Shown: in pieces, positions 12,168 to 61,729 of the stretch
Layout: every line of letters begins with the position of its first letter
Numbering within the stretch: position 1 is the stretch's first letter
Origin: Variovorax paradoxus B4
Lineage (GTDB): Bacteria > Pseudomonadota > Gammaproteobacteria > Burkholderiales > Burkholderiaceae_C
Direction of reading: 5' to 3'
DNA length: 64,000 bases
Assembly: GCF_000463015.1 (NCBI RefSeq)
Contig: NC_022234.1
Coordinates: forward strand, 372,001-436,000
Notes under the pieces: generated by a model
The model's database searches: none
What the model saw: only the letters and a program-made list of their open reading frames with translations
What the model was told of the DNA's origin: nothing
Position numbers and translations under genes: made by a program

Positions 12168-12181
12168 TTGACGGGCATCAA
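12168..12181 (+). promoter_or_regulatory. FNR/Anr-type box upstream of phosphorylase gene
   Basis: TTGACGGGCATCAA matches the FNR consensus TTGAT-N4-ATCAA at all but one base. The centre is 56 bp before the ATG at 12231. Transcription from a class II position would start near 12216, leaving a short leader that contains the Shine-Dalgarno AAGGAG. Confidence 0.7.
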
Positions 12182-12230
12182 GCCCCGGGCGCCCGGCGCA
12201 TGCCAAGCTCCATTCGGACAAGGAGCGCCC

Positions 12231-13739
12231 ATGTCGTCACCCAACCGCCTGCTGGCCCGCCGCGCCGGCATCGACACCTACCAGCAGCCCGTGGTCTACA
12301 TGCGCAGCGACTGCGATGTCTGCCGGGCGGAGGGCTTCCAGTCGCAGGCGCAGGTCGAGCTGATCGCCAACGGGCGCCATCTGTTCGCGATCCTGCACCA
12401 GGTGAGCGGCGACTGGCTGCGCAATGACGAGATCGCGCTGTCGGAGGCGGCCTGGACCTTGATGGGCGCCGCCGAGGGCGAAGAGCTGGTGGTGCGGCAC
12501 CCGCCGATCCTCGATTCGCTGGCGCACCTGCGCAACAAGGTGCATGGCGGCAGGCTGGACTACGCTGCGCTGCGCGCGCTGATGGAGGACGTGAGCCGCG
12601 GGCGCCTCCCCGACATCCACCTGGCCTCCTTCGTGACGGTCTGCGCCGGCCGCGGCCTCGACCTGGACGAGACCGTGGCGCTGACCCGCGCCATGGTCGA
12701 CGTCGGGGAGCGCATCGACTGGGGCACGTCGCCCGTGATGGACAAGCACTGCATCGGCGGCTTGCCGGGCAACCGGACCACGCTGCTGGTGGTGCCGATC
12801 ATTGCGGCCTGCGGCCTGGTGATGCCCAAGACCTCGTCGCGCGCCATCACCTCGGCGGCCGGCACGGCCGACGTGATGGAAACGCTCGCGCCGGTCGACC
12901 TGGACCTGGCGGCAATGCGCCGCGTGGTCGAGCGCGAAGGCGGCTGCATCGCATGGGGAAGCGCCATGCGCGTGAGTCCCGCGGACGACATGCTGATCCG
13001 CGTGGAGCGGCCGCTCGGCATCGACAGCGAGGGCCTCATGGTGGCGTCCATCCTGTCCAAGAAGGCTGCGATGGGTTCGCAGCGCGTGCTGATCGACATT
13101 CCGGTCGGCGCGCTGGCCAAGGTGCGCAGCGACGAGGCCGCCAGCCAGCTCTCGCGCAGCCTGGTCTCGGTGGGCGCGGCGCTGGGCCTGCACGTGCGGA
13201 CGGTGTTCACCGACGGCAACCAGCCGGTCGGCCGCGGCGTCGGCCCCGCGCTCGAGGCGATGGATGTGATGGCGGTGCTCGAACGCACCGCCGACGCGCC
13301 GTCGGACCTGCGCGAGCGCGCGCTCCTGCTGGCCGGGCTGCTGCTCGAACTGGCGGGCAAGGCGGCGCCGGGCACCGGCAACGCGCTGGCGCGCGCGGTC
13401 CTGGAGGACGGGCGCGCGCTCGCCCGCTTCATTGCGATCTGCGAAGCACAGGGCGGCCTGCGCGTGCCGCCGAAAGCCGCCCACACGCACTGCGTGACCG
13501 CGCCCGCGGCCGGGGTGGTGTCGGGCATCGACACCCGCCTGGTGGCGCGCATGGCCAAGCTGGCCGGTGCGCCGCGCGATCCGGCGGCGGGTGCCTCGAT
13601 GCACGTGCGCGTGCAGGACCGCGTCGATCGCGGCCAGCCGCTCTTCACATTGCATGCCGAGAGCCTCGGCGAGCTTCAGTACGCCTTGAGCTTCGTGCGC
13701 TCGCAGCTGCCGGTCGTTCGCATCGAGGCTGCGCCCTGA
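12231..13739 (+). CDS. Thymidine phosphorylase / AMP phosphorylase-type enzyme
   Basis: 502 aa, the long form with an extra N-terminal domain of about 85 residues shared by archaeal AMP phosphorylases and a bacterial thymidine-phosphorylase group. Phosphate-binding motifs KHCIGG (Cys replaces the usual Ser) and SSRAITSAAGTADVMETL are present. It would phosphorolyse a nucleoside or NMP, releasing base and (deoxy)ribose phosphate. SD AAGGAG lies 5 nt upstream of the ATG. A FNR-type box precedes it, so it is the leftmost member of the putative anaerobic regulon. Confidence 0.88.
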   Translation: MSSPNRLLARRAGIDTYQQPVVYMRSDCDVCRAEGFQSQAQVELIANGRHLFAILHQVSGDWLRNDEIALSEAAWTLMGAAEGEELVVRHPPILDSLAHLRNKVHGGRLDYAALRALMEDVSRGRLPDIHLASFVTVCAGRGLDLDETVALTRAMVDVGERIDWGTSPVMDKHCIGGLPGNRTTLLVVPIIAACGLVMPKTSSRAITSAAGTADVMETLAPVDLDLAAMRRVVEREGGCIAWGSAMRVSPADDMLIRVERPLGIDSEGLMVASILSKKAAMGSQRVLIDIPVGALAKVRSDEAASQLSRSLVSVGAALGLHVRTVFTDGNQPVGRGVGPALEAMDVMAVLERTADAPSDLRERALLLAGLLLELAGKAAPGTGNALARAVLEDGRALARFIAICEAQGGLRVPPKAAHTHCVTAPAAGVVSGIDTRLVARMAKLAGAPRDPAAGASMHVRVQDRVDRGQPLFTLHAESLGELQYALSFVRSQLPVVRIEAAP

Positions 13740-13758
13740 GCCACCGGGGGCGGCAGGG

Positions 13759-14115
13759 TCAACCGTCGGTGCCAGGGCGGCCCCGACGCTGCCTGGAACT
13801 GCTGAACCAGGCGGCGAGCTGCGCGAGATCCAGCGCAGCGCTGTCTAAGCGCGAGCGTACCGGCCGCGGCGTGAGCGGCGGCACTTCGTCCTCGATCACT
13901 TTCGTGCGCAAGGCTTCCCATCCGCGGGGCGTGATCTCGAGGACGGTGGCCGGGTCCTGCCGCAGGCCATCGTCGCAGTCGACGTGCGCCGGTGGAATGA
14001 TGACCTTGATCAGGCCGGCTGCGTCGAGCAGGCGCATCCTGTCGATCAGCGCAGGGTCGGCCTGGGTGCAGGGCAGCGGCGTTTGGGACAACTCCCTGAG
14101 CAGATTCAAGCACAT
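13759..14115 (-). CDS. Conserved protein with HVDCD...RQDPATVLxITP motif, unknown (paralogue A)
   Basis: 118 aa, no family recognised. It contains RLLDAAGLIKVIIPPAHVDCD followed by LRQDPATVLEITPRG, nearly the same wording as in the protein encoded at 29684-29980. The N-terminal half looks like a small winged-helix or similar alpha/beta unit and ends after ITPxG; the rest is variable. It is the last gene of a minus-strand unit starting with the Mg-type P-ATPase. A role in the low-oxygen response is inferred only from context. Confidence 0.75.
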   Translation of the reverse strand: MCLNLLRELSQTPLPCTQADPALIDRMRLLDAAGLIKVIIPPAHVDCDDGLRQDPATVLEITPRGWEALRTKVIEDEVPPLTPRPVRSRLDSAALDLAQLAAWFSSSRQRRGRPGTDG

Positions 14116-14133
14116 GGACGCAGCTTCAGGGGC

Positions 14134-14217
14134 TCAGCCGAGCGTGATCCGGAAGACGCCGCCGACAGCACGCCGTGCGCGGCCGAGGGGGCCGATGTTT
14201 TTCGACAGGAAGGACAT
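14134..14217 (-). CDS. 27-residue peptide, DUF2892-like N-terminus
   Basis: A short ORF MSFLSKNIGPLGRARRAVGG... with a strong SD (AAGGAG, 7 nt before ATG). The pattern N-[IV]-G-x-x-x-R-x-x-R resembles the start of DUF2892/YgaP-like membrane proteins, but it stops before a membrane helix could form. It lies between the P-type ATPase and the HVDCD-motif gene. It may be a truncated remnant or a regulatory micropeptide for the ATPase. Confidence 0.45.
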   Translation of the reverse strand: MSFLSKNIGPLGRARRAVGGVFRITLG

Positions 14218-14326
14218 GCGTTTCTCCTTGCAGGCTGGAGAGCATCTTGTGCGGTGCAAGCCAGGCGGGTGTTGCGGCAGATCAAGGAATTCGGGAGCGC
14301 CGGCCGGCACGCCGCGCCGAGGCGGG

Positions 14327-16960
14327 TCAGGGCCGGGCCCTGCGGCGGGGCGGATGCCGGCGCGTCCTCGAAGGCGCGCTGCCCGCCAGGCGGGCATAGA
14401 AGAAGCGCTTGGCCACCTCGGCGAGCACCAGGTACGCCACCAGCATGCCGGCCAGCCAGGCGAAGAAGATCGCGGGCGGCGGCTCGAAATGGAAGAACGG
14501 GGCCAGCGGCGAGAAAGGCAGCAGCAGCGCGGCCGCCACTACGAAGAGCGATGCCAGCGAGAGCGCCGCGCCGGGGCGGCTGGCCCAGGGCCGCCCGCGG
14601 GTGCGGATCACGAAGATCACCAGCACCTGCGTGGCCAGCGACTCGACGAACCAGGCGGTGCGAAACAGCGAGGCGTCCGCGTGCAGCACCTGGATCAGCA
14701 GCCAGAAGGTCAGTGCGTCGAAGGCCGAGCTGATCGCGCCGAACAGCCACATGTAGCGCTGGATGAACTTCATGTCGAGCGTGCGGGGCCGGTGCAGGTC
14801 GGCGGCATCCACGCGGTCGAGCGGGATGGCCGCCTGGGACAGGTCGTAGAGCACGTTGTTGAGCAGGATCTGCGCCGGCAGCATCGGCAGGAAAGGCAGC
14901 AGCAGCGAGGCGCCCGCCATGCTCAGCATGTTGCCGAAGTTGGAACTCGTGCCCATCATGATGTACTTCATGACATTGCCGAAGGTGCGCCGCCCTTCGA
15001 GCACGCCCTCATGCAGCACGGCAAGGTCGTGGTCGAGCATGACGATGTCCGCCACCTCCCGCGCCACGTCGACCGCGCTGTCCACGGTCAGCCCGACATC
15101 GGCCGAGCGCAGCGCGGGGGCGTCGTTGATGCCGTCGCCCAGGTAGCCGACCACGTGGCCGCGCGCCCTGAGCGCCAGGATGATCCGGTTCTTCTGCGCC
15201 GGGTTGACGCGGCAGAACAGGGTGGTGCGGCCCACGCGGGCGCGCAGCGCGATATCGTCCATGGCCGAGATTTCCCGCCCCGTCAGCACGCCCGCCACCG
15301 GAATGCGCAGCAGGGTGCACAGGTGCTGGGTCACCAGCTCGCTGTCGCCGCTCACGATCTTCACGTGGACGCCGCTCTTCGCCAGCGCGGCCATGGCTTC
15401 GCCTGCACCGGCCTTGGGCGGATCGATGAAGGCGGCGAAGCCGGCGAACACCAGCGCGCTCTCGTCGCGCACGTCGGCATGCGGATGGTCCGCGGGCACG
15501 TCGCGCCAGGCTACGCCCAGCACGCGCAGGCCCTGGCGTTCGAGCGCATGGCAGCGCTCGCGCAGCTGCACCAGGGCGTCCGCGTCCAGCGGCGCGAGCG
15601 AGCGGCCCTCGTCGCGCTCGAAGCGGTTGCACAGCGCCAGCACGTCGTCCGGCGCGCCTTTCACCACCAGCCAGCGCGCATCGCCCCGGTCGAGCAGCAC
15701 CGAGACGCGCCGGCGCTCGAAGTCGAAGGGCACCTCGTCGATCTTCTTCCAGGCCGCGGTGTCCATCAGGTGCGCCAGCACCGCCTCGTCGAGCGGGCTC
15801 TTCAGGCCGCTCTCGAAGGTGCTGTTGAGGTGGGCCAGCATCAGCACCCGCGCACTGTCGCGGCCGTCCGCGTCGGCGCAGCGGGCGAGGCCGATGCGCG
15901 CTTCGGTCAGGGTGCCGGTCTTGTCGGTGCACAGCACATCCATCGCGCCGAGGTTCTGGATCGAGGCCAGGCGCTTGACGATCACGCGGCGCCCGGCAAG
16001 GCGCATGGCGCCGCGCGAGAGCGTGACCGACACCACCATCGGCAGCAGCTCGGGCGTGAGCCCGACGGCGAGCGCCACCGCGAACAGAAAGGAGTCGAGC
16101 AGCGGCCGATGCAGGATCACGTTGACCAGCAGCACGAACAGCACCAGCAGCAGGGTCAGCCGCATGATCATCATGCCGAAGCGGTGCATGCCGATCTCGA
16201 ACGCGGTGGGCAGCGGCTCGGCCTGGATGCTGCTCGCCACCTCGCCGAGCGCGGTGTGCGAGCCGGTGGCCATGACGCCGACGCGCGCGCTGCCGCTGAT
16301 CACCGTGCTGCCCATGAACACCGCATTGAGGGCGTCCTGCAGCTCGGTGGCATGGCCCTCCAGTGTGCCCGGGTGCTTCTCCACGGGGTAGGACTCACCG
16401 GTCAGCAGGCTCTGGTTGACGAAGAAGTCGCGCGCCTCCAGCACCAGGCCGTCCGCCGGCACCCGATCGCCCGCCGACAGCAGCATCAGGTCGCCCGGCA
16501 TCACCTCGGTCACCGGGATCTCCAGCGTGGCGCCGTCGCGCAGCACGCGGGCACGCAGCGCCACCGAGGCGCGCAGCTTCTCGGCGGCATTGCTGGCGCG
16601 GTGCTCCTGCACGAAGTCGAGCGTCACGCTCAGCAGCACCATCAGCACGATGATCCCGGCGTTGGCGATGTCGCCCGTGGCCGCCGAGATCGTGCTGGCA
16701 GCGAGCAGCACGAGGACGAGCGGATTGCGCAGGCGGGCGAGGAACTGCAGTGCCAGCGAGCGCTTCGCCTGCGGCTCGAAGCTGTTGGGGCCCCAGCGTG
16801 CATGCGCCTCGTCGGCCTGCAGCTGCGACAGTCCCCAGGTGGCGCCCGCTTGCGCACCGCGCCACCATGGCTCGGGGACGCTAGCGTCGGTGTTGGCGTG
16901 CGAAGGGAGTGTCACTGCGACCGGATGCCGTCGCAACGTCGGGATGGCGAAGCGGGACAT
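14327..16960 (-). CDS. P-type ATPase, magnesium-translocating (MgtA/MgtB) type
   Basis: 877 aa. The phosphorylated Asp is D346 in DKTGTLT; actuator motif LTGESYPVEK and hinge GDGINDAP are present. About ten membrane segments. The C-terminal wording (LYDLSQAAIPLDRVDAADL, then LHRPRTLDMKFIQRYM) is typical of P3B Mg2+ importers. The ATG at 16960 is preferred over an in-frame TTG at 16981. A FNR-type box centred 62 bp upstream suggests oxygen-limited expression. Mg2+ uptake is from family knowledge, not shown here. Confidence 0.9.
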   Translation of the reverse strand: MSRFAIPTLRRHPVAVTLPSHANTDASVPEPWWRGAQAGATWGLSQLQADEAHARWGPNSFEPQAKRSLALQFLARLRNPLVLVLLAASTISAATGDIANAGIIVLMVLLSVTLDFVQEHRASNAAEKLRASVALRARVLRDGATLEIPVTEVMPGDLMLLSAGDRVPADGLVLEARDFFVNQSLLTGESYPVEKHPGTLEGHATELQDALNAVFMGSTVISGSARVGVMATGSHTALGEVASSIQAEPLPTAFEIGMHRFGMMIMRLTLLLVLFVLLVNVILHRPLLDSFLFAVALAVGLTPELLPMVVSVTLSRGAMRLAGRRVIVKRLASIQNLGAMDVLCTDKTGTLTEARIGLARCADADGRDSARVLMLAHLNSTFESGLKSPLDEAVLAHLMDTAAWKKIDEVPFDFERRRVSVLLDRGDARWLVVKGAPDDVLALCNRFERDEGRSLAPLDADALVQLRERCHALERQGLRVLGVAWRDVPADHPHADVRDESALVFAGFAAFIDPPKAGAGEAMAALAKSGVHVKIVSGDSELVTQHLCTLLRIPVAGVLTGREISAMDDIALRARVGRTTLFCRVNPAQKNRIILALRARGHVVGYLGDGINDAPALRSADVGLTVDSAVDVAREVADIVMLDHDLAVLHEGVLEGRRTFGNVMKYIMMGTSSNFGNMLSMAGASLLLPFLPMLPAQILLNNVLYDLSQAAIPLDRVDAADLHRPRTLDMKFIQRYMWLFGAISSAFDALTFWLLIQVLHADASLFRTAWFVESLATQVLVIFVIRTRGRPWASRPGAALSLASLFVVAAALLLPFSPLAPFFHFEPPPAIFFAWLAGMLVAYLVLAEVAKRFFYARLAGSAPSRTRRHPPRRRARP

Positions 16961-17015
16961 TCCTTCATCGAAGCTGGACAAGGCCCAAGGCTAGGCACTC
17001 CCGCGCGCCCCGGCC

Positions 17016-17029
17016 TTGCGCCCGATCAA
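17016..17029 (-). promoter_or_regulatory. FNR/Anr-type box for the Mg-type ATPase
   Basis: TTGCGCCCGATCAA. Reading leftward, a weak -10 (TAGCCT, centre 16990.5) lies 32 nt from the box centre and the ATPase ATG 62 bp away. A separate box for the divergent Usp gene lies 35 bp to the right. Confidence 0.6.
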
Positions 17030-17063
17030 GCATCGACGCCGCGGGACGGAAGTTCGCAGGCGG

Positions 17064-17077
17064 TTGATCCAGCGCAA
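17064..17077 (+). promoter_or_regulatory. FNR/Anr-type box for usp gene
   Basis: TTGATCCAGCGCAA, centre 70 bp before the Usp ATG. A -10-like TAAGGT is centred 32 nt downstream of the box centre. Confidence 0.65.
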
Positions 17078-17140
17078 GGCCGCGCGGGGCGGGGCGGCCT
17101 AAGGTCGGCCCATCGCATTGCGCAAGCCCCAGGAGCCTTC

Positions 17141-17965
17141 ATGCAGACCCCGAAATCCATCCTGCTTCACCTCGACAGCTCGAAGCGCACGGTGGAGCGC
17201 ATCAAGCTGGCCCGCGAGCTGGCCGAGGCCTTCGATGCCGAGGTCACCGGCCAGCCGTGCACCCTGTCCGCGCTCATGCGCTACCCGTTCGCCATCGAGG
17301 CCGCGGCGGAGGCCGTCGCGATCATGCAGGAGATCGACAAGGCGGCGCGCGACAAGATGTACGCCGCCTTCATGGCGAACAGCGCGGGCTCGCAGCGCCT
17401 GCACTGGGCCGAGCCGGAGAGCGACGGCCCCCTGGGATTCGCCCGGCGCGCGCTCTATGCCGACCTGATGATCCTGGGCCAGCGCGACAGGCACGACCCG
17501 ATGCAAGGCGAGCTCCCCGGCGACTTCCTGCCCAGCCTGCTGGTGCAGAGCGGCCGGCCGGCGCTGGTGCTGCCCTACGCGGGGCCGATTGGCCCCGTCG
17601 GGCGCACCGTGCTGGTGGCGTGGAAGGAAACGCGCGAGGCCGCGCGCGCGGTGACCGCGGCGCTGCCGTGGCTGTGCACGGCGTCCCGCGTGCATGCCGT
17701 GGCCTACGGCGAGGACGCGCAGGTCTCCTTGCAGAGCCTGCAGAACTACCTGCGGGTGCAGGGCGTCCAGAATCTGGAACTGCACCCCGGCGGCGGCGAC
17801 GACGAGGATGCCGGCAGCAAGCTGCTGTCCTTCTCCGCCGACCTGAGCGCGGATTTGCTGGTCATGGGCTGCTACGGCCACAGCCGCGCGCGCGAATGGG
17901 TGCTGGGCGGCGCCACGCAGTCGATCCTGCAGTCGATGACGCTGCCCGTGCTGATGTCGCACTGA
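17141..17965 (+). CDS. Universal stress protein, tandem UspA domains
   Basis: 274 aa with two UspA-like halves. The second carries the ATP-binding-type motif MGCYGHSRAREWVLGG, while the first is degenerate. SD AGGA lies about 7 nt before the ATG at 17141. An open frame far upstream is chance. Proteins of this kind are strongly induced in anoxia and stationary phase in many bacteria, and the FNR-type box upstream agrees. Biochemical role unknown; likely nucleotide-binding stress factor. Confidence 0.9.
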   Translation: MQTPKSILLHLDSSKRTVERIKLARELAEAFDAEVTGQPCTLSALMRYPFAIEAAAEAVAIMQEIDKAARDKMYAAFMANSAGSQRLHWAEPESDGPLGFARRALYADLMILGQRDRHDPMQGELPGDFLPSLLVQSGRPALVLPYAGPIGPVGRTVLVAWKETREAARAVTAALPWLCTASRVHAVAYGEDAQVSLQSLQNYLRVQGVQNLELHPGGGDDEDAGSKLLSFSADLSADLLVMGCYGHSRAREWVLGGATQSILQSMTLPVLMSH

Positions 17966-18026: not shown

Positions 18027-18040
18027 TTGATGCGTGTCAA
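18027..18040 (+). promoter_or_regulatory. FNR/Anr-type box upstream of MacAB-like operon
   Basis: TTGATGCGTGTCAA. If it works as a class II site, transcription would begin near 18075. That argues for the adaptor start at 18112 rather than the ATG at 18046, which is only 12 bp from the box centre. Confidence 0.65.
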
Positions 18041-18111: not shown

Positions 18112-19355
18112 ATGCGCCTTTGGTCCGCCGTCAGGCCGCATGTGGCGGCCGGACTCGCCGTGGCCGCGCTGCTGGCCGCGGCCGCATGGCTCGGCCCTGG
18201 CTGGCTGCTCGGGCCGCGCGTGGAGGCGAGCGCGGTCGTGCAGCGCGACTTCGTCCAGTCGGTGGTGGCCAGCGGGCATGTGGAGGCGCCGCACCGCGTG
18301 AACATCGGCACCCAGGTCACCGGCACCGTCAAGCGCGTGCCCGTGGCGGAAGGCCAGGGCGTGAACGCGGGCCAGGTGCTCGTGGAGCTCGAAAGCGCGG
18401 AATTGGCGGCCGCCGTCGCGCAGGCGGATGCGGCGGTGTCGCAGGCGCGGGCGCGGCTGCGCCAGCTGCGCGAGGTCCAGGCGCCGGTGGCCGCGCAGGC
18501 CGTGCGGCAGGCCCAGGTGAACCTGGACAACGCACGCGCACAACTGCGCCGCAACACCGACCTGTTCGACCAGGGTTTCGTCGGGCAGGCCGCGCTCGAC
18601 GAGGTGCGCAAGGCGGTCGACCTGGCCGAATCGCAGCTGCGCGCCAGCCAGAGCCAGCTCGACAGCGCACGCGCCGGCGGAAGCGACGAGGCGGTGGCGG
18701 CCACCGCGCTCGACCAGGCACTGGCCGGCGCGGCCGTGGCGCGTTCGCGCCTGGTCTACGCCACCATCGCCGCGCCGGCGGCCGGCACGCTGATCGACCG
18801 TGCCGTGGAGCCCGGCGACGTGGTGCAGCCCGGCAAGGCGCTGATGGTGCTGTCGCCGGCCGGCAAGACGCAACTGGTGGTGCAGATCGACGAGAGGAAC
18901 CTCCAGTCGCTCGCGCTCGGGCAGAAGGCGCTCGCATCGGCGGACGCCTACCCCGAGCAGCGTCTGGCGGCCGAGCTGGCTTACATCAACCCCGGCGTGG
19001 ACGTGCAGCGCGGTTCGGTGGAGGTCAAGCTGGACGTGCCCGATCCGCCGTCCTACCTGCGGCAGGACATGACCGTGTCGGTCGACATCCAGGTGGCACG
19101 GCGGCCACAGGCCGTGCTGGTGCCGTCCGATGCGGTGCATGACGCCGACCGCGCCGATCCCTGGGTCTTCAAGGTCGACGGGCACCACGCGCGGCGGCAG
19201 CCGGTGCGCCTCGGGTTGCGCGGCGGCGGCCTGAGCGAGGTGCTCGACGGCCTGCATGCGGGCGATCTCGTGCTGCCCGCGAAGACGAGCGGCATCCGGG
19301 ACGGCCTGCGCCTGCGCGCGGTGGCCGTGCCTGCCGAAACGCGTGCGCCGTCGCC

Positions 19356-19359
<4 letters not shown>
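18112..19359 (+). CDS. MacA/HlyD-type periplasmic adaptor of ABC exporter
   Basis: 415 aa from the ATG at 18112 (an in-frame ATG at 18046 would give 437). One N-terminal membrane segment, then a biotinyl-lipoyl-like hairpin half, a long coiled-coil (about 90-185, rich in A/Q/R heptads) and a beta-barrel (VQIDERNLQSLALGQKALAS). It would bridge the inner-membrane FtsX-type permease to an outer-membrane channel. It overlaps the permease gene by 4 nt (ATGA, 19356-19359). Confidence 0.88.
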
Positions 19360-21421: not shown

Positions 21422-21435
21422 TTGAGCCAGCTCAA
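21422..21435 (+). promoter_or_regulatory. FNR/Anr-type box, fully symmetric
   Basis: TTGAGCCAGCTCAA has perfectly symmetric half-sites (TTGAG/CTCAA). The centre is 68 bp before the lipoyl-like gene at 21497, and a weak -10 (CATGCT) is centred 32 nt downstream. Confidence 0.6.
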
Positions 21436-21496: not shown

Positions 21497-21745
21497 ATGA
21501 GTGAAGTCATTCTGGACCCCGCACGCTGGGAGTCGATGGAAGCCGGCGACGCGGCCTTCATCGAAAGCTGGCTGGCGTGCGAAGGCGATCGTGTCCATGC
21601 GGGCCAGGTGCTCGCCAGGGCGATGTTGGTGCAACAGAACGTGGACATCGAAGCGCCGCATGACGGCGTGCTCGAACAGATTTGCGTGGCTGCCGGAGAT
21701 TCGTTCGGTCGCGGCGACGTGCTGGCGCGCGTCGTCAACTTCTGA
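21497..21745 (+). CDS. Biotin/lipoyl-attachment-like domain protein lacking the lysine
   Basis: 82 aa, a free-standing lipoyl/biotinyl fold (ESWLACEGDRVHAGQVLARA, then a second half DGVLEQICVAAGDSF). Where lipoyl proteins carry a modified Lys in a turn such as ETDKA, this one reads LVQQNVDIEAP with no Lys, so it is unlikely to be lipoylated. SD AAGGAG precedes the ATG by 10 nt. It sits directly before a nitroreductase gene (8-nt gap) and behind its own FNR-type box. Role unknown; possibly a scaffold or binding module. Confidence 0.78.
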   Translation: MSEVILDPARWESMEAGDAAFIESWLACEGDRVHAGQVLARAMLVQQNVDIEAPHDGVLEQICVAAGDSFGRGDVLARVVNF

Positions 21746-22959: not shown

Positions 22960-22973
22960 TTGCGCTCGATCAA
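22960..22973 (-). promoter_or_regulatory. FNR/Anr-type box for the host-attachment-family gene
   Basis: TTGCGCTCGATCAA. On the minus strand TAGGCT is centred exactly 32 nt from the box centre (22934.5), and the ATG at 22895 follows. Confidence 0.68.
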
Positions 22974-23029: not shown

Positions 23030-23043
23030 TTGCGTTGGATCAA
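23030..23043 (+). promoter_or_regulatory. FNR/Anr-type box for tripartite exporter operon
   Basis: TTGCGTTGGATCAA. The predicted transcription start near 23078 coincides with an in-frame ATG. That favours the GTG start at 23123, which has a strong Shine-Dalgarno. Confidence 0.62.
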
Positions 23044-29564: not shown

Positions 29565-29578
29565 TTGATCCGGCGCAA
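29565..29578 (+). promoter_or_regulatory. FNR/Anr-type box with strong -10
   Basis: TTGATCCGGCGCAA. The hexamer TAGAAT (29600-29605) is centred 31 nt downstream of the box centre. One of the clearest class II FNR-type promoters in the window; it drives the HVDCD-motif gene at 29684. Confidence 0.75.
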
Positions 29579-30279: not shown

Positions 30280-30293
30280 TTGATCCAGCGCAA
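30280..30293. promoter_or_regulatory. FNR/Anr-type box, possibly bidirectional
   Basis: TTGATCCAGCGCAA. Leftward it has TACATT 32 nt from centre (putative small RNA); rightward TATTTT (30314-30319) 30 nt from centre, toward the lipoprotein gene at 30508. Confidence 0.65.
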
Positions 30294-30397: not shown

Positions 30398-30411
30398 TTG
30401 ACGTGGCGCAA
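30398..30411 (+). promoter_or_regulatory. Second FNR/Anr-like box before lipoprotein gene
   Basis: TTGACGTGGCGCAA, centred 103 bp before the ATG at 30508. No convincing -10 at the class II distance, so weaker than its neighbour. Confidence 0.4.
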
Positions 30412-31021: not shown

Positions 31022-31035
31022 TTGATCTGCCGCAA
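31022..31035 (+). promoter_or_regulatory. FNR/Anr-type box with TAGAGT -10
   Basis: TTGATCTGCCGCAA with TAGAGT (31058-31063) centred exactly 32 nt downstream. The gene starts at 31110. Confidence 0.74.
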
Positions 31036-32284: not shown

Positions 32285-32298
32285 TTGACGCTGATCAA
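32285..32298 (+). promoter_or_regulatory. FNR/Anr-type box upstream of usp and P-type ATPase
   Basis: TTGACGCTGATCAA (one mismatch to consensus). TATTCT (32322-32327) is centred 33 nt downstream, and the Usp ATG is at 32379. Confidence 0.72.
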
Positions 32299-36110: not shown

Positions 36111-36530
36111 ATGAGCTTGTTGAAACCGCACCGATCCACATGCCGCCGCTCCGCCGCGGCCTGGATCGCCGCCATCGTCATTGCGCCCACGGCCGGCGCC
36201 TCCACCCCCGCCGGGCTGCTCGCCGGCTACGCCGGGGAGGCAGGGGCCGCCCCGAGCCCCGAACGAGGCCAGTCGCTGTTCAACAGCCGCCACGGCCGCG
36301 ATTGGAGTTGCGCCTCGTGCCACGGTGCGGCGCCCACGGGGCCGGGCCGGCACGCGGCCACCGGCAAGCCGATCGCAGCCCTTGCCCCGGCCTTCAACCC
36401 CGAGCGGTTCACCGATGCCGCCAAGGCCGACAAGTGGTTCCGCCGCAACTGCAATGACGTGGTGGGCCGCGAATGCACCGCCGCAGAGAAGGCCGATGTG
36501 TTGAGTTGGTTGATCAAACTCAAGCCCTGA
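36111..36530 (+). CDS. Periplasmic c-type cytochrome, DUF1924/SHP-like
   Basis: 139 aa. Signal peptide (AAAWIAAIVIAPTAGAS) and one heme motif CASCH near residue 67, with downstream Cys in NCNDVVGRECTAAEKADVLSWLIKL. The extra Cys pair and spacing match DUF1924, relatives of the sphaeroides heme protein. SD AGGAG precedes the ATG at 36111. First of a five-gene unit with a second cytochrome c, cytochrome b561 and a two-component pair. Confidence 0.88.
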   Translation: MSLLKPHRSTCRRSAAAWIAAIVIAPTAGASTPAGLLAGYAGEAGAAPSPERGQSLFNSRHGRDWSCASCHGAAPTGPGRHAATGKPIAALAPAFNPERFTDAAKADKWFRRNCNDVVGRECTAAEKADVLSWLIKLKP

Positions 36531-40105: not shown

Positions 40106-40119
40106 TTGCGCTTGCGCAA
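40106..40119 (+). promoter_or_regulatory. FNR-like symmetric dyad, weak candidate
   Basis: TTGCGCTTGCGCAA is fully symmetric and fits the loose form TTGCG-N4-CGCAA. It is GC-rich, 134 bp from the BON ATG, and lacks a -10 at the expected distance. Confidence 0.35.
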
Positions 40120-46304: not shown

Positions 46305-46318
46305 TTGATCTATCGCAA
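46305..46318 (-). promoter_or_regulatory. FNR/Anr-type box for dehydrogenase operon
   Basis: TTGATCTATCGCAA. On the minus strand TATGCT is centred 31 nt away (46280.5) and the E1-alpha ATG is at 46226. Confidence 0.72.
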
Positions 46319-49703: not shown

Positions 49704-49717
49704 TTGCGCTGGCTCAA
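49704..49717 (-). promoter_or_regulatory. FNR/Anr-type box for methyltransferase-esterase operon
   Basis: TTGCGCTGGCTCAA, centred 62 bp upstream of the TTG start at 49648. The -10 candidate (CAAACT, centre 49678.5) is weak but correctly spaced. Confidence 0.58.
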
Positions 49718-50198: not shown

Positions 50199-50212
50199 TT
50201 GATCCACATCAA
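50199..50212. promoter_or_regulatory. FNR/Anr box, perfect consensus
   Basis: TTGATCCACATCAA, an exact TTGAT-N4-ATCAA dyad. Rightward, TACAAG (50235-50240) is centred 32 nt away, which would start transcription inside the 38-codon ORF at 50222. Confidence 0.78.
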
Positions 50213-50603: not shown

Positions 50604-50694
50604 GCGTCTCGCCGAAGCAGAGTCTCGAGGATCGTCCGGCGAATCGCCCGTACGGGCTTGCAATCGGCGCGCGTCAAGGTAGTTGTCGCCTCTT

Positions 50695-52463: not shown

Positions 52464-52477
52464 TTGACGAACATCAA
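52464..52477 (+). promoter_or_regulatory. FNR/Anr-type box upstream of kinase-like ATPase
   Basis: TTGACGAACATCAA, one mismatch from the perfect dyad, 126 bp upstream of the gene at 52597. The -10 region (TTTTCTTTCAAT) is AT-rich but not clear-cut. Lies outside the IS. Confidence 0.65.
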
Positions 52478-53396: not shown

Positions 53397-53410
53397 TTGA
53401 TGCAAGTCAA
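53397..53410 (+). promoter_or_regulatory. FNR/Anr-type box upstream of CBS gene
   Basis: TTGATGCAAGTCAA, centred 81 bp before the ATG at 53485. A TATTCT hexamer at 53468 is too far for a class II arrangement. Confidence 0.63.
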
Positions 53411-53484: not shown

Positions 53485-53994
53485 ATGAACATCAAGTCAC
53501 TCTGCCGACGCGAGGTCGTCGGCATTTCCGCGAACGCCGGCTTGCGCGAGGCGGCCGCCCTGATGTGCGAGCAGCATGTGGGTTCGCTGGTCGTCGTGAC
53601 GAACGACACCCCGTCGAAGGTGGTCGGAATCGTGACGGACCGTGACCTTGCACTCGACGGCCTGGGCCACGACCAGCCTCAACCTGACCAGCCGGTGGGC
53701 GAACTCGTGCGTGGCCGCCCGTTGGCAGTGCCGTCCAGCGCCGGCTTGCGGGAAGCCGCCGAAGCAATGGAGAGCGCAGGCGTGCGGCGACTGCTCGTCG
53801 TCGACGATGACGGCGGCGTGGTGGGCATCGTGTCCGCCGATGACCTGCTCGTAGCGATGGCGGAAGACTTGGCGAAGCTCGCGCAGGCATTGCGCCGCAA
53901 CATCTCGCGCGAGACGTCCGAGCGTGGCGTGTTTACCGGAGCGTCGCGGCCGCGCGTGACGTACCCTTTCTTTGGCACCGTGGCATCGCAATGA
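53485..53994 (+). CDS. Tandem CBS-domain protein (Hrp1-like)
   Basis: 169 aa made of two CBS domains (about 8-62, with VVGIVTDRDLALDGL, and 76-132, with RRLLVVDDDGGVVGIVSADDLL) and a 35-residue tail. CBS pairs bind adenine nucleotides. Small two-CBS proteins such as mycobacterial Hrp1 are hallmark hypoxic-response proteins. SD GGAGAG is 6 nt before the ATG. Preceded by a FNR-type box. Similar to the proteins at 55968-56450 and the fragment at 55749-55910. Confidence 0.9.
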   Translation: MNIKSLCRREVVGISANAGLREAAALMCEQHVGSLVVVTNDTPSKVVGIVTDRDLALDGLGHDQPQPDQPVGELVRGRPLAVPSSAGLREAAEAMESAGVRRLLVVDDDGGVVGIVSADDLLVAMAEDLAKLAQALRRNISRETSERGVFTGASRPRVTYPFFGTVASQ

Positions 53995-54932: not shown

Positions 54933-54946
54933 TTGAGCTAGCGCAA
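54933..54946 (-). promoter_or_regulatory. FNR/Anr-type box, nitroreductase / hibernation-factor gap
   Basis: TTGAGCTAGCGCAA. Leftward, CATCGT is centred 32 nt away before the nitroreductase. The same dyad could also serve the rightward hibernation-factor gene, whose ATG is 261 bp away. Confidence 0.58.
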
Positions 54947-55051
54947 CTGCGGGCGCCGCATCCAATCGCACAGTGGCTCCATTGCAGGAGGCACATCGTG
55001 CATCTCATCGACCGACACGGCGACACTGGCCGAGCATCCAACAGCGCGGAT

Positions 55052-55120
55052 GGCAACCCGTTGTTGGCTGATCTGTACCCGTTGACCCTGTTGCCGGCCT
55101 ACTGGCAGGTTCAAATGCGT
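55052..55120 (+). pseudogene. Possible remnant of a nicotinate phosphoribosyltransferase N-terminus
   Basis: In frame +, NPLLADLYPLTLLPAYWQVQM resembles the N-terminus of the intact enzyme encoded at 57956 (ALLTDLYQLTMLQAYHDGGM): LL-DLY-LT-L-AY-M. Only about 20 residues match and the rest of the frame is unrelated. It lies in the leader region of the hibernation-factor gene. Likely a deletion scar of a former gene copy; the short match could still be chance. Confidence 0.35.
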
Positions 55121-55200
55121 TTCGAGGATTCGCGGCTGCAATCGCGCGCGACGCAAATCGTGAGACATGCGGCCGCGAGGCGCAAGGAGAAAGAACAGTC

Positions 55201-55746
55201 ATGAAACAGCCACTTGAGATCCGCTTCATCGGGATGGAATCTTCGGACGCCGTCGAATCCGCCGCCCGCGAGAAGGCCGGCAAGCTCGACCGGTTCCGTC
55301 CCGACATCATGGCGTGCCGGGTCACCATCGAGTTGGCGGAGAAGCACCGGCATCAGGGGCGGCCTTTCGCCGTGCGTGTGGACGTGACGGTGCCGGACCA
55401 CGAACTAAGGGTGGATCGCGTGCATGACGAAGACGTCTACGTCGCTTTGCGCGAGGCCTTCGACGACATGACGCGCCAGCTCCAGGACTCTGTGCGGCGC
55501 GTGCGAGGGGAGGAAAAGCTGCACGCGTCCACCCTGCATGGGGAGGTCGTGCGTTTCGCGGACGACGGCCACTGCGGCTTCATTCGCACCGCCGAAGGGG
55601 ACGAGTACTGGTTCGGTCCCGAAAACATGGCAGGCGCACCGTTCGAGCACCTGGCGCCGGGCGACCATGTGCAGTTCGTTCCCGAGGTGGCCGCCGAGGG
55701 TCGGCAGGCAAAGCGCGTCAGCGTCGGCAAGCGCCACGCCGCCTGA
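55201..55746 (+). CDS. Ribosome hibernation factor (HPF/RaiA) fused to a cold-shock domain
   Basis: 181 aa. Residues about 4-100 are an HPF/YfiA (ribosomal S30AE) domain starting PLEIRFIGMESSDAVESAA. After a linker, residues about 112-178 are a cold-shock (CspA-like) domain with HGEVVRFADDGHCGFIRTAE and HVQFVPE. It should bind the 30S decoding site and inactivate ribosomes during energy starvation; the CSD may add RNA contact. No long-HPF dimerisation domain. The FNR-type dyad upstream fits hypoxic hibernation. Confidence 0.88.
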   Translation: MKQPLEIRFIGMESSDAVESAAREKAGKLDRFRPDIMACRVTIELAEKHRHQGRPFAVRVDVTVPDHELRVDRVHDEDVYVALREAFDDMTRQLQDSVRRVRGEEKLHASTLHGEVVRFADDGHCGFIRTAEGDEYWFGPENMAGAPFEHLAPGDHVQFVPEVAAEGRQAKRVSVGKRHAA

Positions 55747-55967: not shown

Positions 55968-56450
55968 TTACGGCCGCGCCGTTTGCTCGTGGCGTCCGGC
56001 CGCGGCCACTGCCTCGGCGACGGCCTTCATCTCTTGCGCCAGCACGTCCAGCACGTCGTCGAGCGCCACCAGGCCGATCAGCGAGCCCTGCGGCGAAACG
56101 ACCGGCAGGCGGCGAACACCCTTGCGGCGCATCGCCAGGAGCAGGTCGGCGAGCGAGTCTTCCTCGCGCGCGTTGACCACACCCTTGCTCATCACGTCGC
56201 CCACTTGCATGCCGTGCGGGTCGCGGTCGGCGGCCACGACGCGCATGGCGATGTCGCGGTCCGTCAGCATGCCGACGACCACGCGATCCTCCGGCGTGCG
56301 TTCCTCCACGACGACGAGGCAGCCGACGTGGCGCTCACGCATGAGGCGGGCCGCCTCGTTCAGGCCCATGTCGGGAAAGGCGATGGTGACGATGCGGGTG
56401 CAGATGTCGCCGGCGTTCAGCGGCGTCCTGAAATTTGCGTTTGGTTTCAT
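55968..56450 (-). CDS. Tandem CBS-domain protein (Hrp1-like)
   Basis: 160 aa. Two CBS domains (about 15-72 with VVVGMLTDRDIAMRVV, and 85-143 with RRLPVVSPQGSLIGLVALDDVL), plus a helical tail. Nucleotide-sensing module of the hypoxic-response type. ATG at 56450. A FNR-type box centred 85 bp upstream with CATTGT 32 nt from centre. Divergent from the phosphoribosyltransferase remnant/CapA unit, sharing that box. Confidence 0.9.
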   Translation of the reverse strand: MKPNANFRTPLNAGDICTRIVTIAFPDMGLNEAARLMRERHVGCLVVVEERTPEDRVVVGMLTDRDIAMRVVAADRDPHGMQVGDVMSKGVVNAREEDSLADLLLAMRRKGVRRLPVVSPQGSLIGLVALDDVLDVLAQEMKAVAEAVAAAGRHEQTARP

Positions 56451-56528: not shown

Positions 56529-56542
56529 TTGAGCCAACGCAA
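56529..56542. promoter_or_regulatory. FNR/Anr-type box, apparently bidirectional
   Basis: TTGAGCCAACGCAA. Leftward: CATTGT centred 32 nt away, CBS gene. Rightward: AAGAAT (56564-56569) centred 31 nt away, then the unit starting at 56601. Confidence 0.65.
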
Positions 56543-57908: not shown

Positions 57909-57922
57909 TTGACGCATGTCAA
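57909..57922 (+). promoter_or_regulatory. FNR/Anr-type box upstream of NAPRTase
   Basis: TTGACGCATGTCAA with TAGAGT (57944-57949) centred 31 nt downstream. Transcription would begin at or next to the A of the ATG at 57956. Confidence 0.74.
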
Positions 57923-57955: not shown

Positions 57956-59308
57956 ATGCGCGGCGCGTTGCTCACGGATCTGTATCAGCTGACCATGCTG
58001 CAGGCCTATCACGACGGCGGCATGAACGCGCCCGCGAGCTTCGAGTTCTTCGTGCGCAAGCTGCCGGCGCAGCGCAACTTCCTGATGGCGGCCGGGCTGG
58101 AAGAGGTGCTCGCCTACCTGCAGGGCCTGCGTTTCGAGGAGAGGGAGATCCGCTGGCTGGCGGCGACCGGCCGGTTCGGCACCGCGTTTCTGCGTTCGCT
58201 CGAGGACCTGCGCTTCACCGGCGACGTGTGGGCGATGCCCGAGGGCACGGTGTTCTTCGCCGACGAGCCCATCCTGCGCGTCACGGCGCCGATACGCGAA
58301 GCGCAGCTGGTGGAGAGCCGGATCATCAACCTGCTGCATTACGAAACCCTGGTGGCCAGCAAGGCAGCGCGCTGCGTGCTCGCCGCGCCCGGCAAGGTGC
58401 TGGTGGATTTCGGGTTGCGCCGCGCCCACGCCAGCGAAGCCGCGCTGCTGTCGGCGCGCGCCAGCTACCTGGCGGGGTTCTCGGGCACTGCCACCGTGCA
58501 GGCGGGCATGGAGCACGGCATTCCCGTGTACGGCACCATGGCGCATTCATACGTGCAGGCCCACGACGACGAAGCGCAGGCGTTCGAGCATTTCGCGCGG
58601 TCCCAGCCGGGCGGCACCACGTTGCTGATCGACACATATGACACCGAGGCGGCCGCCCGCAAGGTGGTCGCGCTGGCCGCCCGGCTTGCCGCGGACGGCA
58701 TCCGGATCAAGGCCGTTCGCATCGACAGCGGTGACCTGGGCGAACATGCGCGGCGGGTGCGGGGCATCCTCGACGCGGGCGGTCTGGAGGACGTCGGGAT
58801 CTTCGCGAGCGGCGGCCTGGACGAGCACCAGGTGCGCGACCTGCTGCGGTCGGGCGCGCCGATCGAGGGTTTCGGCATCGGCACGCGCATGAACACATCC
58901 GCTGACGCCCCGTACCTCGATTGCGCGTACAAGCTGGTGGAGTATGCGGGCCTGCCCCGGCGCAAGCGCTCCGAGGGCAAGGCCACCTGGCCGGGCTGCA
59001 AGCAGGTGTTCAGGCACTTCGGCGCGGACGGTGCCATGGCCGGCGACACCCTGGGCCTGCATGACGAGCGCGGCGCCGGCAAGCCGTTGCTCGAATTCGT
59101 CGTGGCGGGCGGCCGGCGCGGGATCGCCTCGCCGGGGCTGGATGGCAGCCGGGAGCATGCCCGCTGGCAGCTGGCGGCCCTGCCGGCGCGGCTGCGCGAG
59201 CTGGAAGCGGCCGAGCCTTTCGCCGTCGCCGTGTCGCCGGCACTGGCGACGCTGGCCCGCCAGGTCGATGCACGCACGGGTGCCGCCGTGCGGACCGGGC
59301 ATGCCTGA
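57956..59308 (+). CDS. pncB: Nicotinate phosphoribosyltransferase
   Basis: 450 aa. Starts ALLTDLYQLTMLQAYHDGG as usual for the family; the catalytic His region lies in MAHSYVQAHDDEAQAF; phosphate-binding LVDFGLRRAHASEAALLSA and IRIDSGDLG-type AVRIDSGDLGEHARR are present. It converts nicotinate and PRPP to NaMN in NAD salvage. No Shine-Dalgarno precedes the ATG and the predicted transcript begins at it, suggesting leaderless translation. Parallels PncB2 of the mycobacterial DosR regulon. Followed with overlap by an APH-like kinase gene. Confidence 0.92.
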   Translation: MRGALLTDLYQLTMLQAYHDGGMNAPASFEFFVRKLPAQRNFLMAAGLEEVLAYLQGLRFEEREIRWLAATGRFGTAFLRSLEDLRFTGDVWAMPEGTVFFADEPILRVTAPIREAQLVESRIINLLHYETLVASKAARCVLAAPGKVLVDFGLRRAHASEAALLSARASYLAGFSGTATVQAGMEHGIPVYGTMAHSYVQAHDDEAQAFEHFARSQPGGTTLLIDTYDTEAAARKVVALAARLAADGIRIKAVRIDSGDLGEHARRVRGILDAGGLEDVGIFASGGLDEHQVRDLLRSGAPIEGFGIGTRMNTSADAPYLDCAYKLVEYAGLPRRKRSEGKATWPGCKQVFRHFGADGAMAGDTLGLHDERGAGKPLLEFVVAGGRRGIASPGLDGSREHARWQLAALPARLRELEAAEPFAVAVSPALATLARQVDARTGAAVRTGHA

Positions 59309-60463: not shown

Positions 60464-60514
60464 TGTTTGAGCACTTGAGGTACTGGAAGGCGCGGCCGTG
60501 CGGCACGGTGCTCG

Positions 60515-60528
60515 TTGATCTGGCCCAA
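60515..60528. promoter_or_regulatory. FNR/Anr-like box between usp remnant and ADH
   Basis: TTGATCTGGCCCAA, centred 58 bp from the start of the leftward Usp remnant and 110 bp from the ADH start. It may be the relic of the former Usp promoter. No clear -10 on either side. Confidence 0.5.
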
Positions 60529-60593
60529 TGGCGGAGAGGTCGCCGTGCAGATCCGACCGCCCGGTGCGCCGGACTGGCATTCCTTGCGCTATC

Positions 60594-60607
60594 TCAAGAA
60601 GGCATGC
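60594..60607 (+). promoter_or_regulatory. FNR-like dyad close to ADH start
   Basis: TTGCGCTATCTCAA lies only 31 bp (centre) before the ADH ATG, too close for class II activation. Either fortuitous or a repressing position. Confidence 0.35.
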
Positions 60608-60631
60608 AGCGAAGGCGCATACCGTGAGGGC

Positions 60632-61669
60632 ATGAAAGCACTCGTGTACCAGGGCCCCGGCCTCAAATCCCTCGAAGACCGCCCCATGCCGCAGATCCAG
60701 GCGCCAGGCGACGCGGTCGTGAAGATCCTCAAGACGACCATCTGCGGCACCGACCTGCACATCCTCAAGGGCGACGTGCCGACCTGCACGCCGGGCCGCA
60801 TCCTCGGGCACGAAGGGGTGGGCGTCATCGAGGCCGTCGGCGCCGGCGTGACGGCCTTCCACCCGGGCGACCATGTGCTGATCTCGTGCATCTCCTCGTG
60901 CGGCAAGTGCGAGTACTGCCGCCGCGGCATGTATTCGCACTGCACGAGCGGTGGCTGGATCCTGGGCAACACCATCGACGGCACGCAGGCCGAATACGTG
61001 CGCATCCCGCATGCGGACACCAGCCTCTATCCCGTTCCCCCGGGTGCGGACGAAGAGGCACTGGTGATGCTCAGCGACATCCTGCCGACCGGCTTCGAGT
61101 GCGGCGTGCTCAACGGCAAGGTCGCGCCCGGCAGCACGGTGGCCATCGTGGGCGCCGGGCCGATCGGCCTGGCCACGCTGCTCACGGCCCGGTTCTATTC
61201 GCCCGCGCAGATCATCCTGATCGACCTGGACGATGGCCGGCTCGAGGTCGCGCGCCGCTTCGGCGCGACGCACACCGTCAACAGCAGCGACGGCAAGGCG
61301 GCCGAGGCGGTGCTGGCGCTGACCGGCGGCCGCGGCGTCGACGTGTCGATCGAGGCGGTCGGCATACCGGCCACCTTCGTGCTGTGCCAGGACATCGTGG
61401 CGCCCGGTGGCACCATTGCGAACATCGGCGTCCACGGGCACCCGGCCGAGCTCCACCTGGAGCGGCTGTGGTCGCAGAACATCGCGATCACCACGCGGCT
61501 GGTCGACACGGTCTCGACGCCCCTGCTGCTGAAGACGGTGCAGTCGCAGAAGGTGGACCCGGGCCAGCTGATCACCCACCGGTTCACGCTGGACCAGGTC
61601 CTCGATGCCTACGACACCTTCGGGCGCGCCGCCGAGACGCATGCACTCAAGGTGATCATCGAGGCGTAG
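60632..61669 (+). CDS. Zinc-dependent alcohol dehydrogenase (MDR family)
   Basis: 345 aa. Catalytic zinc ligands in CGTDLH and GHEGVG; the structural zinc Cys cluster CISSCGKCEYCRRGMYSHC (about 89-107) is complete; Rossmann motif VAIVGAGPIGLAT binds NAD(P). The ATG at 60632 begins the conserved N-terminus (MKALVYQGPG). It resembles short-chain alcohol or formaldehyde-type dehydrogenases; substrate unknown. In low oxygen it could reoxidise NADH by reducing aldehydes. FNR-like dyads lie upstream. Confidence 0.9.
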   Translation: MKALVYQGPGLKSLEDRPMPQIQAPGDAVVKILKTTICGTDLHILKGDVPTCTPGRILGHEGVGVIEAVGAGVTAFHPGDHVLISCISSCGKCEYCRRGMYSHCTSGGWILGNTIDGTQAEYVRIPHADTSLYPVPPGADEEALVMLSDILPTGFECGVLNGKVAPGSTVAIVGAGPIGLATLLTARFYSPAQIILIDLDDGRLEVARRFGATHTVNSSDGKAAEAVLALTGGRGVDVSIEAVGIPATFVLCQDIVAPGGTIANIGVHGHPAELHLERLWSQNIAITTRLVDTVSTPLLLKTVQSQKVDPGQLITHRFTLDQVLDAYDTFGRAAETHALKVIIEA

Positions 61670-61715
61670 GGCCCTGTTCGCTCCGGTGCCGGCAAATGCG
61701 GGCTGCGGCGCTGAC

Positions 61716-61729
61716 TTGATCGGCATCAA
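61716..61729 (+). promoter_or_regulatory. FNR/Anr box, perfect consensus
   Basis: TTGATCGGCATCAA, an exact TTGAT-N4-ATCAA dyad, 119 bp before the Usp ATG. An AAGATT hexamer is centred 33 nt downstream, immediately before the heptanucleotide repeats. Confidence 0.77.

Follow-up and report, generated by a model that had tools for sequence, protein, structure and literature searches.

What reads a short dyad that recurs in the gaps between genes over tens of kilobases, and how would its reader learn about oxygen? These questions are raised by a 64-kb stretch of Variovorax paradoxus B4 (the window; C1:372001-436000, C1 being contig NC_022234.1), where FNR/Anr-type boxes precede genes for ion pumps, stress proteins and exporters. 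The original prediction, made from the letters of the window, assigned them to a single anaerobic activator of the FNR/Anr type. Our analysis leads to a different circuit. At a probability of about 70%, we read the window as part of an accreted low-oxygen persistence island of the lxa type, in which most transcription units would be targets of one FixK-like activator without iron-sulphur (Fe-S) cysteines ("clusterless" below), placed under a hybrid kinase of the haem-PAS type. The genome consists of two contigs with a total of 7.15 Mb (C1, 1.35 Mb; C2, 5.8 Mb); positions without a contig prefix are those of the window.

Boxes are concentrated between genes of a 168-kb island

The half-site dyad pattern TTGAY/TTGCG/TTGAG-N4-RTCAA/CGCAA/CTCAA matches the window 25 times, first at 12,168 and twice as the perfect consensus (50199 and 61716). 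Nearly all matches (23/25) lie between genes, which amounts to 3.0 per kb of intergenic against 0.045 per kb of coding DNA. Between 11.2 kb and the window end, 20 of the 28 transcription units are preceded by a box at a distance of 20-260 bp, compared with 2/60 and 4/69 in the flanking parts of C1. Thus the original prediction, with its some 24 dyads from 12.2 kb onwards, the same two perfect boxes, their almost exclusively intergenic placement and their occurrence before most units, described the window correctly. It had also seen no box before the genes at 1-12 kb; none indeed precedes 12,168, but this proves little alone because only about 1.0 kb of intergenic DNA is present there. Its exclusion of the cytochrome unit is not strictly true, since the dihaem-cytochrome gene follows box 36510 at 54 bp, although this box lies within the end of the preceding gene and has no -10 at the usual spacing. 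Gene calls came from a home-made codon model rather than a standard gene finder, and starts may be off, with box 60584 a likely case.

Chance or base composition was dropped as the source of the boxes, as shuffles, reversed patterns and coding density all speak against it. The consensus TTGATNNNNATCAA with at most one mismatch occurs 8 times in the window versus a mean of 0.47 in 100 dinucleotide shuffles, and 34 versus 7.1 times with at most two mismatches. Genome-wide, there are 169 boxes with one mismatch versus 20 for the reversed pattern, and reversed control patterns occur 0-1 times per 20 kb. When 89 gaps of the island were screened for dyads de novo, TTG-N8-CAA ranked first (58 versus 3.0 in simulated sequence), and this dyad is absent among the 12 listed for the flanks. 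A check of the kind suggested at the outset, a comparison of intergenic and coding density by position weight matrix (PWM), was run with a matrix trained on 23 window sites: on held-out C1:436-512 kb it gave 25 intergenic and 3 coding matches at threshold 12 (3.2 versus 0.04 per kb), with 0.3 per kb in intergenic flanks, and 26 intergenic and 20 coding matches at threshold 8.

The boxes are real in the window, but the island of about 50 kb that was first proposed is too short: the part inside the window makes up only about a third of the whole. Dense boxes span approximately 168 kb (C1:338-506 kb; first match C1:338028, last C1:505761), and C1:332-512 kb holds 55 pattern matches, 51 of them between genes, while flanking intergenic DNA has 0.10 and 0.25 matches per kb. 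Among the 16 perfect boxes of the genome, 11 are on C1, seven of these within 349-486 kb. In a control sample of C2 (20 pieces, 400 kb of the 5.8 Mb), 8 intergenic matches were found in 48.9 kb and 2 coding matches in 351 kb, a background that is overstated because four of the pieces had been picked for holding perfect boxes. Boxes on C2 lie upstream of ccoN, a heavy-metal ATPase gene and universal stress protein genes.

Pfam and NCBIfam scans, which covered part of the island genes, identified universal stress proteins, P-type cation ATPases, BON, CBS, Hsp20, GroEL, Lon and FtsH-type proteins, PhaC, PpsA-like proteins, nitroreductase, baeRF/Host_attach, AMP/thymidine phosphorylase and nicotinate phosphoribosyltransferase (NAPRTase), as well as an S30AE plus cold-shock-like protein, exporters and NarH. 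A nar-like run (NarH alone confirmed by Pfam) and transporter-like genes occupy C1:451100-461000; the perfect box at C1:460983 by this run is conserved in the related strain G139.

Box-to--10 spacing is fixed for part of the boxes

In FNR promoters, a class II activator is centred near -41.5, with an expected distance of 21/22 nt between box and -10. The -10 motif TAnnnT, on which all our counts rest, stands at a distance of exactly 21 or 22 nt in 23 of the 110 box flanks of the island and in 130 of 525 flanks in 80 related loci; at any other offset it is found at most 1 and 4 times, respectively (means 0.11 and 0.59), and at 21/22 nt from control dyads never (0/338). Counted per box, it is present at 23/55 island boxes, 129/263 boxes of the 80 loci and 9/25 window boxes. 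For part of the boxes, therefore, the spacing fits FNR-type class II activation, and it assigns a direction to boxes such as 17016, 22960, 29565, 31022, 46305 and 57909.

Boxes are conserved while the island appears to grow

Three related strains were compared, over 160 kb of G139, 140 kb of G150 and 100 kb of G149. G139 has a syntenic version of the island with 19 boxes. Of 55 orthologous genes, 14 are boxed in both strains, 2 in B4 alone, 1 in G139 alone and 38 in neither, so that 14 of the 17 orthologs boxed in either strain are boxed in both. For most genes between 29.7 and 61.7 kb of the window, the compared G139 stretch offers no close match. In G150 and G149, with 3 and 4 boxes in the compared stretches, close matches are limited to a gene resembling ornithine carbamoyltransferase (OTC), the regulator described below and two further genes (window 10836-12151). 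The NAPRTase gene was tried as a marker of the island, but 40 other genomes of the genus gave no close homolog of it (3 weak partial matches). Since the three strains share only parts of the island, and the NAPRTase gene lacks a close homolog in the genus, the island seems to expand through insertions around a small core.

A box-free gap of about 25 kb, C1:358.1-382.8 kb, includes window 1 to ~10.8 kb. None of its 10 units has a box, as against 8/14, 20/28 and 28/35 units in the island parts around it, and it has no close match in the compared G139 stretch; it is probably a separate insertion. Window 1-10800, within this gap, contains ABC-importer-like, AMP-binding-like and other genes (by eye), all box-free.

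A candidate activator of FNR lineage without cluster ligands

The regulator candidate is encoded at C1:349492-350280, inside the island and about 22 kb left of the window. Searches of the genome for CRP/FNR-type helix-turn-helix (HTH) domains gave at least 22 matches to PF13545 (150 of 211 first-look candidates scored) and 3 to PF00325. The recognition helix E-x-x-S-R was found in two proteins, the candidate (TLESVSR) and C2:1473333 (SREMVSR), the latter CRP-like. In the candidate and its kin the helix reads LESVSR or LETVSR in an FNR context. Among the matches listed, the candidate is the sole FNR-close protein of the genome, the next own match to an FNR-like query being at 1.8e-7, and neither the HTH searches nor this query returned a canonical Fe-S FNR. 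It aligns best with Aliivibrio fischeri FNR (1.7e-25; FixK2, 6e-13), the nearest fold to the predicted structure of its V. beijingensis ortholog (pLDDT 82) is FNR, and its best NCBIfam model is Fnr, which stays below the cut-off as does every other model.

What the candidate lacks is the cluster motif. C-x2-C-x5-C occurs in none of 25 aligned proteins (the regulator and 24 relatives) and in none of 80 named homologs, but in all 28 canonical FNRs from an order-wide survey, and tryptophan stands where FNR has its fourth ligand cysteine. The original prediction therefore divides into two parts. That one FNR-type activator governs the boxed gene set remains probable, because a single FNR-close protein, class II spacing and the 14 of 17 boxes shared with G139 point the same way; that this activator senses oxygen itself, as an Anr/FNR protein would, does not agree with the missing ligands. 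Because the FNR recognition helix is kept while the [4Fe-4S] ligands are missing, the activator should work like FixK, and a FixK-like rather than Anr-like mechanism appears most likely.

Close homologs (47-78% identity) are present in 24 of 119 other family genomes, and the order survey added one clusterless homolog outside the family, also devoid of the cysteine motif (both among the matches listed). In the tree, clusterless proteins form one group (96/94) beside FNR, on long branches that leave its exact place unsure; in this tree, in which long branches meet, the regulator groups with betaproteobacterial FNR and not with FixK, and it shares 27% identity over 166 aa with a FixK-type protein of R. 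leguminosarum.

We compared 80 named loci, from Variovorax, Rhizobacter, Piscinibacter, Roseateles, Aquabacterium and others. In 73 of them a box lies within 500 bp of the regulator gene, compared with 0/80 for the reversed pattern. The divergent OTC-like gene (C1:348768-349277), within 400 bp of the regulator in 61 of the 80 loci, is apparently the true target of this conserved box, whose -10 faces it in 68 of the 73 loci and the regulator in 1. The gene (16768-17277 of locus L006) encodes 169 aa, only the carbamoyl-phosphate-binding half of ornithine carbamoyltransferase.

A co-inherited FixL-like kinase is the more likely oxygen sensor

Just downstream, the regulator usually has a PAS-GAF-HisKA-REC kinase and an OmpR-type regulator in the 80 named loci. 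In this genome, the hybrid kinase, which includes a GAF domain, is encoded at C1:332730-334835 and the response regulator (Response_reg and Trans_reg_C; best NCBIfam model OmpR, below cut-off) at C1:334840-335586. Of the 41 genomes of the genus, 28 encode the regulator, and a kinase ortholog (at least 55% identity) is found in 27 of these 28 and in 0 of the 13 others, among the matches listed and in genomes that differ in completeness (Fisher p 8e-10). Linkage alone does not explain this co-inheritance, because the two genes are on separate contigs in G150. The kinase PAS domain aligns with FixL (8e-17) and DosP, and its His80, which all 63 loci with a match retain, aligns with the haem-binding histidine of FixL.

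Between the box and the regulator gene lies a conserved stretch that contains a -10 (CCTAGCAT) and, in 36 of 73 loci, direct repeats spaced by 11 bp (shuffles: mean 0.66, at most 4). These repeats look like an OmpR-type site and resemble the K-box of FxkR, GTTACA-N4-GTTACA (PMC7888657, PMC4999443, PMC7769827).

From these features, it is more likely that oxygen is sensed upstream by the co-inherited FixL-like kinase than by the regulator. The kinase, by way of a predicted haem, would respond to oxygen and pass phosphate to the OmpR-type response regulator, which would bind the direct repeats in the activator promoter. The activator would then bind boxes centred at about -41.5, mainly as class II sites, before genes for stress proteins, ion pumps, chaperones and proteases, polyhydroxybutyrate synthase, NAD salvage and nitrate reductase, and before the cbb3 oxidase genes on C2. 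As in FixK-type control, the amount of activator, not a cluster of its own, would carry the oxygen signal. Boxes, spacing, conservation, missing cysteines, co-inheritance and the conserved histidine are features of the sequences themselves; phosphotransfer, oxygen response and binding are the predicted parts.

Several observations weigh against this circuit. Only 23/55 island boxes and 9/25 window boxes carry the spaced -10. The repeats in the activator promoter are present in only half of the loci, and positive autoregulation through the box beside the regulator is not claimed, because that box faces the OTC-like gene. Kinase and regulator are about 15 kb apart here and on different contigs in G149, G150 and G153; G140 has the regulator without a full kinase, and the kinase of G123 is in two pieces. 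The kinase PAS domain has Met100 (by eye) where FixL has a functional arginine. The helix of the CRP/Vfr-like C2:1473333 is also E-x-x-S-R, preceded by a CRP-like arginine. Counts of perfect boxes per genome point both ways. They are lowest with neither regulator type (mean 2.2, n=9) and higher with the clusterless type only (5.4, n=12, own excluded; one-sided p 4e-4 versus neither), which speaks for the circuit. With canonical FNR only they average 4.5 (n=4) and with both 9.7 (n=15); since genomes with both types have the most, the two may share sites in other genomes. Counts across 120 family genomes showed no group pattern evident by eye.

Other explanations of the boxes

It is possible, but unlikely, that the clusterless regulator itself senses a signal, be it redox via a conserved cysteine or else haem or nitric oxide in the manner of DNR-type proteins; the linked kinase would then be no more than a parallel input. 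Cys115 is at least 90% conserved in alignment A1 and Cys166 in alignment A2, a perfect box lies at the island gene run with narH, and FixK2 itself is redox-modulated through a cysteine (PMC9104804). But Cys115 is missing from the 90%-conserved list of A2, and near-perfect co-inheritance with the kinase, together with OmpR-like promoter repeats, points to transcriptional control.

Much less room is left for the sensor originally proposed, a canonical Fe-S FNR/Anr protein that senses oxygen directly and drives the boxes. The boxes do match the FNR/Anr consensus, and canonical FNRs, which have the same helix, are common in family and order, among the matches listed. Here, however, the sole FNR-like protein has no cysteine motif, and no second FNR-like match is better than 1.8e-7, again among the matches listed, whereas second FNR-like copies in congeners score at ~1e-36 to 1e-40. 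Only a marginally smaller chance attaches to the view that the boxes are real but few ancestral promoters respond, the rest being passengers of duplicated or inserted gene blocks. The -10 counts, one perfect box without a target and large blocks without a close match in the related strains compared would agree with it; the retention of 14 of 17 boxes in both strains, while in-gene density is near zero, argues the other way. It is barely credible that the dyads are read by another CRP-family protein or merely reflect base composition: C2:1473333 is present and has the E-x-x-S-R helix, but reversed patterns are rare, the de novo screen recovers the motif from island gaps but not from flanks, a fixed -10 spacing is not compositional, and G130, G135, G152 and G158, which have CRP-like matches (the same 224 aa frame) and no FNR-like protein among the matches listed, hold just 4, 3, 3 and 1 perfect boxes.

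Relation to known low-oxygen systems

The circuit favoured here, a clusterless activator under a FixL-like kinase, most resembles hFixL-FxkR-FixK(f) of Rhizobiaceae, with which it has in common a hybrid kinase with FixL-type PAS, an OmpR-type response regulator, a Crp/Fnr activator without Fe-S cysteines and TTGAT-N4-ATCAA boxes (PMC7888657, PMC4999443, PMC7769827); a direct-repeat site at the activator promoter may be a further link, the pattern here being found in 36 of 73 loci. It differs in the repeat period, 11 here and not 10, and in its betaproteobacterial host. A similar island exists in an alphaproteobacterium: at R. leguminosarum NZ_CP030763.1:362192-374902 (L243, on a plasmid), a trio of PAS kinase, HTH and response regulator genes adjoins genes of the Hsp20, BON, MBL-fold and acetate-kinase families, and the 12.7 kb contain 5 boxes. 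The response regulator there is 46% identical to that of B4, the activator only 27%, and the kinases, of which that of B4 has a GAF domain, align only in their PAS (29%) and HK-REC (44%) parts.

The FixK2 regulon of Bradyrhizobium diazoefficiens is driven by FixLJ, with the NarL-type FixJ in place of an OmpR-type regulator. It shares with the island a degenerate box (TTGA/C-N6-T/GCAA) and the target families MBL fold, thymidine phosphorylase, RND adaptor, GroEL, Hsp20, universal stress protein, host attachment protein, nitroreductase, PpsA, PhaC and CBS (PMC9104804). One FixK2 site is letter-identical to window boxes 17064 and 30280, the plus strand of 17064 reading as the site listed for blr1289 (PMC9104804). 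In Herbaspirillum seropedicae, Fnr1/Fnr3 use a betaproteobacterial FNR-type motif, with low-oxygen induction of usp and cbb3 genes, but these proteins keep the Fe-S cysteines that the regulator here lacks (PMC5934665).

In gene content, the closest relative is the lxa locus of the Burkholderia cepacia complex (BCAM0275a-0323 in J2315), which lies on chromosome 2. By product names, it too is a patchy island; it encodes universal stress proteins, Hsp20, BON ("phospholipid-binding"), PhaC, MBL-fold, HlyD/ABC exporters, a cation ATPase, PpsA and PncB, and has a cytochrome b561 followed by a response regulator and a sensor kinase (PMC4981469). The CRP-family gene BCAM0287, numbered inside lxa, is a predicted regulator (PMC4981469, PMC6127331, PMC9104464, PMC3759415). 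The island described here exceeds lxa about threefold in size and has 51 mapped intergenic boxes, and no canonical FNR was found among the matches listed for its genome; low-oxygen induction, shown for lxa (PMC6127331, PMC9104464, PMC3759415), is predicted here. FixK regulons and lxa loci are thus known already, and what is new is the pairing of a clusterless FNR-lineage activator with a FixL-like hybrid kinase in Burkholderiales, and the size of the island; among the titles and abstract openings listed from open-licence PMC papers, none gave an earlier account of this circuit in the order.

Boxes of the window and their downstream genes

The boxes of the window are listed in Table 1. Within the called alcohol dehydrogenase gene, ATG 60632 is a likelier start (by eye); it would put the centre of box 60584 41 bp upstream with a correctly spaced TAnnnT, which is why this box may be a true site.

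Table 1. Pattern matches in the 64-kb window with the gene that each precedes. Distances are in bp; the last two columns mark TAnnnT at 21-22 nt and conservation in G139.
Box	Strand	Distance	Downstream gene or setting	TAnnnT	G139
12168..12181 (TTGACGGGCATCAA)	+	56 (centre)	AMP/thymidine phosphorylase 12231-13739		same box, same place
14272..14285	-	163	small gene 13759-14115 (no Pfam/NCBIfam match)
17016..17029	-	62	P-type cation ATPase 14327-16960	yes	conserved
17064..17077 (second box)	-	110	P-type cation ATPase 14327-16960
18027..18040			between 17099-17881 (-, no Pfam match) and HlyD-type gene 18142-19359 (+)
21422..21435	+	68	lipoyl-domain protein 21497-21745, then nitroreductase 21754-22353
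22960..22973	-	71	baeRF/Host_attach protein 22446-22895	yes
23030..23043	+	86	outer-membrane efflux / HlyD / ABC genes 23123-29518		conserved
29565..29578	+	112	small gene 29684-29980 (no Pfam/NCBIfam match)	yes
30280..30293	+	221	glycine-zipper lipoprotein-like gene 30508-30951
30398..30411 (second box)	+	103	glycine-zipper lipoprotein-like gene 30508-30951
31022..31035	+	81	open reading frame (ORF) 31110-32195 (no Pfam match, weak coding score)	yes
32285..32298	+	87	universal stress protein 32379-32807, then P-type ATPase 32864-35455
36510..36523	+	54	dihaem cytochrome c 36571-37059; box within end of gene 36087-36530	none at usual spacing
40106..40119	+	134	BON-domain protein 40247-40900
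46305..46318	-	85	gene 45243-46226, heading run to 42824-43573 (2-oxoacid dehydrogenase acyltransferase)	yes
49704..49717	-	65	PCMT / erythromycin-esterase fusion 47660-49645
50199..50212 (perfect)			no convincing target
52464..52477	+	126	histidine-kinase-like gene 52597-53346
53397..53410	+	81	CBS-domain protein 53485-53994
54933..54946	+		54998-55204 and S30AE + cold-shock-like protein 55201-55746
56529..56542	-	85	CBS-domain gene 55968-56450 (start 56495 in another gene call)
57909..57922	+	40	nicotinate phosphoribosyltransferase 57956-59308	yes
60584..60597	+		inside called alcohol dehydrogenase gene 60545-61669	yes
61716..61729 (perfect)	+	119	universal stress protein 61842-62684		conserved

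The perfect box at 50199 lies in degenerate-looking DNA (49646-52067) with a short ORF, adjoining two transposase-like ORFs (by eye); the short ORF is too close to the box to be its target (by eye). A small RNA at this place was considered and dropped: Rfam had no match anywhere in the window, and the flanking DNA matched just two short stretches (37 and 30 bases) among the compared loci. The small proteins of 13759-14115 (-) and 29684-29980 (+), each with a box upstream, are alike by eye (HVDCD...LRQDPATVL), and a third small protein outside the dense box stretch (C1:510058-510333) is faintly like them. Two ORFs have unusual domain combinations: 55201-55746 joins an S30AE (hibernation-factor-type) domain to a cold-shock-like stretch whose score does not reach the Pfam cut-off, and 47660-49645 unites a PCMT methyltransferase with an erythromycin-esterase domain.

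Implications

A pattern spotted by eye has become a proposed circuit with a named sensor, relay, activator, sites, spacing and targets. Its extension beyond B4 has, in our estimate, slightly better than even odds: in Comamonadaceae-type Burkholderiales, a FixL-like PAS/GAF hybrid kinase and an OmpR-type regulator would control a clusterless activator of FNR lineage, a case of parallel Fe-S loss, and this core module would be the growth point for box-bearing survival genes, up to the ~168 kb seen here. This suggests that rhizobia are not the only bacteria in which FixK-type control, with an FNR relative that gave up its own sensor and answers to a haem kinase, arose or was acquired by exchange. 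Patchy persistence islands like lxa may hold together via one shared box, with genes collecting near the gene of its reader. Variovorax is a common plant-associated genus, and the circuit, if true, would offer a concrete route for its survival without oxygen.

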